From Synechococcus sp. KORDI-49 (GTDB lineage Bacteria; Cyanobacteriota; Cyanobacteriia; PCC-6307; Cyanobiaceae), in contig NZ_CP006270.1 of the NCBI RefSeq assembly GCF_000737575.1, positions 437,163 to 501,162 on the forward strand: a stretch of DNA of 64,000 bases. The letters are read 5' to 3'. The position numbers and the translations under genes were made by a program. The notes beneath the pieces were generated by a model. It ran no database searches. It saw nothing but the letters and a program-made list of their open reading frames with translations, and was not told where the DNA came from. Of the stretch, positions 56,695 to 58,883 are shown piece after piece. How positions within the stretch are numbered: the first letter of the stretch is position 1; the number at the start of each line of letters is the position of its first letter.

Positions 56695-57084
56695 TCACCA
56701 GAGCTGCGTCAGGCTCACCGGCTGGAATTTCTCCACGGCGATGGTCCAGGCCCGCGGGCTCATCCCCTGCAGGCCCTTCCTGAACGCCTCCGCGTCGCCA
56801 CTGTTCAGCCAGGCCGCCTTGAGCACCGGCAGATCCTCCGGCAGCCGCTCCATCGGCAGCTCCACCAGCAGCAGACTCTCCGCCGCCGCCGCCCGCTTCA
56901 GCAGCCCCTCGTCGCTGCGCTGCCAGACCCGCAGCAGCAGCTCAAGCACCAGGGCCCGCCCCAGTTCGTCCGGCGCCTCCCCCTCCGCCGCCACCTCTTT
57001 CTGGGATCGTCCGGCCAGCGGCAACGCTCGCCGCCCTTCCTGCTCGATCAGGGCCAGCGCCACGAGGTAAGGAGTGTCGGCCAC
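56695..57084 (-). CDS. Unknown 129-aa protein divergent from umuD, possibly SOS-regulated
   Basis: The frame starts at ATG 57084 (MADTPYLVALALIEQEGRRAL) and encodes a helical, Leu/Ala/Glu-rich soluble protein ending VEKFQPVSLTQLW. No motif or family is recognised. Its start is 43 nt from the perfect LexA-type palindrome at 57128-57141, which also serves umuD on the other strand, so joint SOS control is plausible. The strongly helical, charged character argues for a true protein. Confidence 0.68.
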   Translation of the reverse strand: MADTPYLVALALIEQEGRRALPLAGRSQKEVAAEGEAPDELGRALVLELLLRVWQRSDEGLLKRAAAAESLLLVELPMERLPEDLPVLKAAWLNSGDAEAFRKGLQGMSPRAWTIAVEKFQPVSLTQLW

Positions 57085-57127
57085 GGATCATGCGCGAAAC
57101 CACACCATCCTCCCCGCGAGCCAGTTC

Positions 57128-57141
57128 AGTACACCTGTACT
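57128..57141 (+). promoter_or_regulatory. LexA operator (SOS box) between umuD and the divergent gene
   Basis: A perfect palindrome AGTACACCTGTACT, matching the cyanobacterial LexA consensus of the AGTACN4GTACT/T type. It ends 24 nt before the umuD GTG and lies 43 nt before the divergent ATG. The overlapping TACTAT could be the umuD -10 element. Confidence 0.82.
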
Positions 57142-57165
57142 ATCAAGCAGGTCGCGTCGTCCGCT

Positions 57166-57597
57166 GTGGAGTTCCACCAACCTCCGCTTCCCCTGCAGCC
57201 CAGGCGGGCGCGACTGAGTCTGCCGCTGGCCGGCGAGCGGGTGGCGGCCGGCTTCCCCTCCCCGGCCGACGACTACGTGGAGGTGGGAATTGACCTCAAT
57301 GAGCAGCTGATCCGCCACCCCACCAGCACCTTTTTCCTGCGGGTCAGCGGCGAGTCGATGACGGGCGCCGGCATTCACGACGGTGATCTGCTGGTGGTGG
57401 ATCGCAGCCTCGACCCTCGCCCGGGCCGGGTGGTCGTCGCCGTGCTGGACGGTGCATTCACCCTCAAACGACTGGTGCGCCACCGCGGTCGCCTGCGACT
57501 CGAGGCAGCCCATCCGAACTATCCGCCCCTGGAACTGCACCGCTGCGGCGAGGTGCAGATCTGGGGTGTGGCGGTTCACGTGATCCATCCGCTCTGA
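57166..57597 (+). CDS. umuD: UmuD-like S24 peptidase, DNA polymerase V accessory subunit
   Basis: UmuD self-cleaves on the RecA filament to UmuD' and joins UmuC in polymerase V. The 143-aa protein has a candidate cleavage bond A28-G29 in RVAAGFPSPADDY, catalytic S64 in SGESMTG and K101 in FTLKRL, the S24 Ser-Lys dyad. I start at GTG 57166, just after the SOS box; the longer frame runs antisense through the neighbour gene. No Shine-Dalgarno is visible, so a short or leaderless message is possible. umuC follows after 8 nt. Confidence 0.92.
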   Translation: MEFHQPPLPLQPRRARLSLPLAGERVAAGFPSPADDYVEVGIDLNEQLIRHPTSTFFLRVSGESMTGAGIHDGDLLVVDRSLDPRPGRVVVAVLDGAFTLKRLVRHRGRLRLEAAHPNYPPLELHRCGEVQIWGVAVHVIHPL

Positions 57598-57605
57598 ACC
57601 ACGCC

Positions 57606-58883
57606 ATGCCCTCGGCCACCGCCCTGATCGACGGCAACAACTTCTATGCCTCCTGCGAGCAGAGCCTTGATCCCGCCCTGATCGGTCGACCGGTGGTGGT
57701 GCTCTCCAACAATGACGGCTGCATCGTGGCCCGCAGCGCCGAGGCCCGCGCCCTCGGCATCGCCATGGGCACGCCGTACTTCAAGGCGCGCACGGAGCTG
57801 GCACGCCAGAACGTGGTGGTGCGCAGCTCCAACTACGCCCTCTACGCCGATATGAGCCAGCGGATGATGAGCCTGCTGGAAACCCATTGCGAAGAGCTGG
57901 AGATCTACTCGATCGATGAGGCCTTCGCACGGCTGAGTCGTCCCCGCAGCGGCGATCTGCAGCACTGGGCCCGCCGGCTTCGCGCCCGTGTTCGACAGGA
58001 TCTGGGGCTGCCGATCGCCATCGGTGTGGGAGCCAGCAAAGGGCAGGCGAAGCTGGCCAACCGTCTGGCCAAGCAGGTGCCGGCCCATGCCGGCGTCTTC
58101 GATCTGGGTCGCTGCGATGACGCCGACAACTGGCTGGAAACGGTTGCGATCGAGGATGTCTGGGGCATCGGTCGCAAGCTGGCCCGTTGGTGCCGGCTGC
58201 GGGGCATCACCAATGCCCGGCAGCTGCGAGACATGCCCAGTGGAGAACTGCGGGCGAAATGCGGTGTGGTGGGGCTGCGACTGCAACGGGAGCTGCGTGG
58301 CCATGCCTGTCTGCCTCTGGATCTGGCACCCGCACCGAAACAGGAAACCTGCGTCAGCCGCAGCTTCAGCCGCCCGATCACCAGCCTCGAAGAACTCCGC
58401 CAGGCCGTGGCCACCTACGTGGTGCGCGCAGCGGAGAAACTGCGCAGGCAACGCCAGCGGGCCGCCGCCCTCACGGTCTATACCCGCACCAGCCCCTTCA
58501 TCCCGGCGTTCTACAGCCAGGCCGCCAGCACCCGGCTGGATCTGCCCAGCAACGACACCGCGGTGCTGCTCGAGGCGACATTACCGCTGGTGGATCGCAT
58601 CTTCCGGCCGCACCGGCAACTGGCCAAGGCCGGTGTGCTGATGCAGCACCTGCAGGGCACCGACACGCTGCAGTCCCATCTGATGGTGCCGATGAGCGCG
58701 GAGCAGCAAGGGAAGCGGGAGTGCCTGATGCAGACGATCGATCGGCTCAATCAGCGCTACGGCCGCGGCACGGTGCACTGGGCGGCCTGTGGCCTGCAGC
58801 CGGGCTGGATGATGCGCCGGGAACGCCTCAGCCGGGCCGCCACCACCCGGTTGAGCGATCTGCCGACCATTCATGCCCGTTGA
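57606..58883 (+). CDS. umuC: UmuC, Y-family DNA polymerase V catalytic subunit
   Basis: Error-prone translesion polymerase of the SOS response. The 425-aa protein has the catalytic acids D9 in LIDGNNFYASCE and D104-E105 in YSIDEAFARL, the helix-hairpin-helix DVWGIGRKLARW, and the C-terminal DUF4113-like end typical of UmuC (YGRGTVHWAACGLQPGW). Length is normal. It is in one unit with umuD under the SOS box. A convergent pair of small genes ends 44 nt away. Confidence 0.95.
   Translation: MPSATALIDGNNFYASCEQSLDPALIGRPVVVLSNNDGCIVARSAEARALGIAMGTPYFKARTELARQNVVVRSSNYALYADMSQRMMSLLETHCEELEIYSIDEAFARLSRPRSGDLQHWARRLRARVRQDLGLPIAIGVGASKGQAKLANRLAKQVPAHAGVFDLGRCDDADNWLETVAIEDVWGIGRKLARWCRLRGITNARQLRDMPSGELRAKCGVVGLRLQRELRGHACLPLDLAPAPKQETCVSRSFSRPITSLEELRQAVATYVVRAAEKLRRQRQRAAALTVYTRTSPFIPAFYSQAASTRLDLPSNDTAVLLEATLPLVDRIFRPHRQLAKAGVLMQHLQGTDTLQSHLMVPMSAEQQGKRECLMQTIDRLNQRYGRGTVHWAACGLQPGWMMRRERLSRAATTRLSDLPTIHAR

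Follow-up and report, generated by a model that had tools for sequence, protein, structure and literature searches.

The stretch of DNA that was analyzed (the window, 64,000 nucleotides in length) corresponds to positions 437163-501162 of the single-contig genome of Synechococcus sp. KORDI-49 (2,585,813 bp) and carries, on opposite strands, umuD, with umuC downstream of it, and the gene of a 129-aa protein conserved in Cyanobiaceae, here called P129 (Table 1). The two divergent genes are separated by a gap of 81 bp, inside which lies AGTACACCTGTACT, the GTG start of umuD at 57166 being located 24 bp beyond its end. The preliminary description of this DNA had reported, between umuD on the plus strand and the 129-aa gene on the minus strand, a perfect 14-nt palindrome having the established form of a cyanobacterial LexA site. 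Its position (57128-57141), its placement between the two genes and its form were all found as described, whereas "perfect" was slightly generous, since AGTACACCTGTACT is a 6+2+6 palindrome composed of two 6-nt arms, pairing over 6+6 bases, and a 2-nt spacer, the asymmetric central CC.

Table 1. Features of the umuD-P129 region, in window coordinates.
Feature	Position	Strand	Details
P129, 129-aa conserved Cyanobiaceae protein	56695..57084	-	GTG start at 57084; conservation, dN/dS, AlphaFold2
Probable P129 -10 box GAGGAT	57107..57112	-	At -28 to -23
Candidate LexA operator AGTACACCTGTACT	57128..57141	.	AGTACA-CC-TGTACT; assigned to umuDC
Probable umuD -10 box TACTAT	57138..57143	+	First four bases within the operator
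umuD	57166..57597	+	GTG start; S24 peptidase; Peptidase_S24 PF00717, E 4e-29; NF007621 above cut-off
umuC	57606..58883	+	Y-family polymerase subunit; PF00817, E 4.6e-36, and DUF4113

Compared with the published consensus AGTACWNWTGTACT (PMC3091678), AGTACACCTGTACT deviates only at the two W positions in the middle, and the same genome encodes a LexA (TIGR00498 above cut-off, C1:39877-40479). In the 64-kb window it was the sole match to AGTACANNTGTACT at 0 or 1 mismatch. It has the 14-bp palindromic form AGTAC-N4-GTACT, with 12/12 arm bases. Pattern searches of the whole genome (2,585,813 bp) returned 2 matches at 12/12 bases compared with 0 for a reversed control pattern, and those of the genus returned 35 forward matches compared with 0 for the reversed control; the occurrence of AGTACACCTGTACT is beyond chance. 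The sequence GTACTAT overlaps or trails the operator in nearly all loci of the compact type, in which P129 and umuD lie close together. The reading of the palindrome as the LexA operator of umuDC has good support, since the palindrome combines the published form, a fixed place over the probable umuD -10 box in compact relatives and the induction of umuC by mitomycin in two related strains.

The gene to which the operator belongs was indicated by the comparison of relatives. In the compact loci of the genus, 81-95 bp separate P129 from umuD, the site being 24-29 bp away from umuD. Other strains of the genus have gaps of 359-928 bp, and two further ones have gaps of about 2.0 and 3.3 kb; in these split loci, where read, the site was found 13-21 bp from umuD and none was found near P129. 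The second genus, which we take to include WH7803 and CC9311 (the latter presumably genome G243, with P129 about 1.5 kb from umuD), displayed the same pattern: umuD and P129 are parted there by a GDSL-hydrolase gene of about 880 bp or by a longer insert, and the distance from the site to the umuD start, as aligned, is at most 46 bp. In both marine Synechococcus genera, the site thus keeps its place 13-46 bp before umuD, whether the locus is compact or split, and moves with umuD, the inserts that part the two genes (about 360-1490 bp) belonging to at least five unrelated groups. At the P129 loci read outside these two genera, umuD was absent from the vicinity, as was any comparable site. When scored with a PWM, the compact operators reached 12.3-23.9 bits, and no score above 12 was obtained within 500 bp of P129 in the P129 loci of relatives apart from the umuD site; the best site near P129 outside the two genera was a weak 10.5-bit match at a Prochlorococcus locus (L145). 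Among the loci read, P129 adjoined umuD in the two related genera only, and in other genera it was far from umuDC (for example, 2340271 vs 199551 in G041), with no conserved P129 neighbor across them in a gene-neighborhood comparison. Since the surrounding genes are likewise common to both genera with this adjacency, the gene order indicates that the adjacency is inherited.

P129 seems to have its own promoter, as suggested by a conserved sequence island about 28 bp before its start, which is present with or without umuD nearby. The sequence of this island varies: marine Synechococcus has GAGGAT or GAAGAT, other relatives have CAAGAT, CAGGGT or CAAGGT, and several AT-rich genomes have TAGAAT, TATAAT or GATAAT. 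Between -31 and -24, a -10-like hexamer was present in 42 of 57 non-redundant P129 loci (16.0 ± 3.0 in shuffles), counts that represent support rather than proof because the pattern was defined after the data had been viewed. Relative to the P129 start, the operator spans -57 to -44 in KORDI-49 and covers the -35 element expected from a 17-bp spacer (-51 to -46), so local repression is conceivable and LexA possibly also acts on P129 in this strain; in the common class of loci with an 88-bp gap, the operator abuts the expected -35. The wider proposal that umuDC and P129 share one LexA site in compact strains and are both repressed from it, P129 being SOS-induced there and not elsewhere, draws on this overlap and appears rather doubtful, as the umuD/P129 arrangement has been split repeatedly and the distance from the operator to the probable P129 -10 box varies (15 bp in KORDI-49, 23-25 bp in most loci and 33-43 bp in some). 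A weak additional argument against it is that the main text of a mitomycin study (PMC3744912) does not mention the P129 orthologues by name.

Homologues of P129 were found in 27 of the 34 genomes of the genus and in 254 of the 300 genomes of the family (181 of the 196 of high quality), making the protein near-universal in Cyanobiaceae. With dN/dS values of 0.10-0.31, invariant residues and a fixed start throughout the family, P129 is, judging from this conservation, a real gene. Within the genus, most compact loci (57084, L008-L019, L024, L025 and L032) use GTG or TTG as its start codon; almost everywhere else the codon is ATG. Two profiles, built from one genus and from many genera, gave no convincing relatives outside Cyanobiaceae among 131 sampled cyanobacteria, the three matches at E 0.017-0.08 being ignored. 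The AlphaFold2 model predicted an alpha/beta domain with confidence (mean pLDDT 92.5, pTM 0.87), so that the first description of the protein as helical was not quite apt. Scans of P129 against Pfam, NCBIfam and PHROGs gave no significant match, and the best hit among PDB sequences, a phosphatase (E 0.019 over 61 residues), was treated as chance. Similarly, the best results of the fold searches, with Foldseek against the PDB (E 0.11), with VIA-align (CheC, Z 4.5) and in a viral search (E 0.06), were not trusted; P129 may nevertheless have a known fold. A resemblance to the little finger of Y-family polymerases (Dpo4/Dbh; Z 3.1-3.5 over 63-64 residues) was at noise level and was not used. Searches with locus tags guessed from gene order found no paper discussing P129 orthologues. 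Our guess is that P129 is a general cytosolic picocyanobacterial protein rather than a subunit of polymerase V.

The co-occurrence of P129 with umuC, proposed earlier as a check, gave a divided answer. Among the 196 high-quality Cyanobiaceae genomes, 186 carried umuC, and P129 was absent from all 10 of the umuC-less genomes compared with 5 of the 186 umuC-bearing ones. These 10 genomes represent about four lineages (genus g8, G029, G057 and G081). On the other side, genus g48 kept umuDC and lexA with P129 absent, and P129 was also missing from the umuC-bearing G050 and G305. Neither lexA nor umuC nor P129 was matched in the near-complete genomes G029 and G057, which look as though they had lost the SOS system. 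The co-loss of umuC and P129 is weak evidence and the sole result in favor of a shared role, and it may reflect a general loss of damage repair, because the lineages concerned had 0-2 photolyase-family matches, compared with 4 in most others tested, and two of them were without lexA. A conserved role for P129, as partner or modulator, in polymerase V or in DNA-damage tolerance, for which this co-loss is the argument, was judged improbable, given this explanation, the separate persistence of umuDC in g48, the lack of a fold or sequence link between P129 and the parts of polymerase V, and the P129 loci outside the two genera, where neither a LexA site nor umuD stands beside the gene. The SOS partner of polymerase V envisaged in the preliminary description was not borne out, as the operator follows umuD upon separation, P129 elsewhere is without it and often has its own -10-like box, and the adjacency is confined, among the loci read, to two related genera. 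Equally hard to credit is the composite in which P129 would be a picocyanobacteria-specific damage-tolerance factor, lost with umuDC in repair-poor lineages and controlled by LexA through the umuD operator in compact marine Synechococcus. The idea that the P129 frame is open by chance, opposite other sequence, and is not a gene, compatible with its lack of Pfam or NCBIfam matches and with the overlapping open frames of this G+C-rich region, is refuted by the family-wide conservation, the low dN/dS, the invariant residues, the fixed start and the confident model.

The palindrome is best explained, with fair probability, as the LexA operator of umuDC, the genes of a mutagenic polymerase, with P129 as a separate gene that has its own promoter and neighbors umuD through ancestral gene order. 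LexA bound at the operator would cover the probable umuD -10 box and keep umuDC off, and upon DNA damage the RecA-driven cleavage of LexA would turn umuDC on. P129 would be a separate, divergently transcribed picocyanobacterial gene with a promoter of its own, placed next to umuD because the ancestor of the two marine Synechococcus genera presumably had this gene order, and where the gap is short, its repression by LexA may occur as a side effect. Counted against this explanation were the co-loss of umuC and P129, the position of the operator over the expected P129 -35 in KORDI-49, the definition of the P129 -10 pattern after the data had been viewed, and the distance of 23-25 bp between the operator and the P129 -10 box that most compact loci share in the two genera and that can be read as a kept spacing. 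A divergent operator should not be taken as the sign of a new SOS partner, the comparison of relatives being what shows the gene that owns it. P129 nevertheless defines an uncharacterized, near-universal family of Cyanobiaceae, the picocyanobacteria of oceans and lakes, with a confident predicted structure, and deserves a knockout on its own merits.

Perfect sites of the same kind were also found elsewhere in the genus, 3-17 bp before the starts of four types of proteins. Six genomes presented one 4-17 bp before a Cys-rich protein of 74-77 aa (MTCxxCQxF...GW.PEA) with no Pfam match above cut-off, at loci L001 (in KORDI-49, contig 113473-113486), L184, L187, L192, L193 and L195. In four genomes (L183, L188, L190 and L191, near position 1500), a site was located 3-13 bp before dprA (PF02481, E 6.8e-60), which suggests that DprA may be under SOS control in those four; no perfect site was seen before dprA in KORDI-49. 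In several genomes, sites also precede DUF3104 proteins (82-90 aa) and DUF1651 proteins (L002, in KORDI-49 at contig 387968-387981, and L177; L178, L179 and L185). As possible unstudied SOS genes, those of these four types seem more promising than P129.

LexA control of umuDC in marine Synechococcus was already predicted in 2010, when umuCD of CC9605, CC9902, CC9311, WH8102 and others were named among the putative LexA targets (Li 2010, PMC3091678). In the mitomycin C study, umuC was induced in CC9311 and WH8102, and umuD in CC9311, together with recA and lexA (Tetu 2013, PMC3744912). The boxes of Nostoc PCC 7120 LexA, cited in PMC3091678 as RGTACNNNDGTWCB, belong to a different cyanobacterial group and to other genes (lexA and recA), and AGTACACCTGTACT nevertheless fits this 14-bp pattern. 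A close likeness is to the umuDC operons predicted to be under LexA control in marine Synechococcus and Prochlorococcus (PMC3091678), in which a site of the same form is located in the umuD promoter; the strain differs, and the overlap with the probable umuD -10 box and the neighboring P129 are described here.
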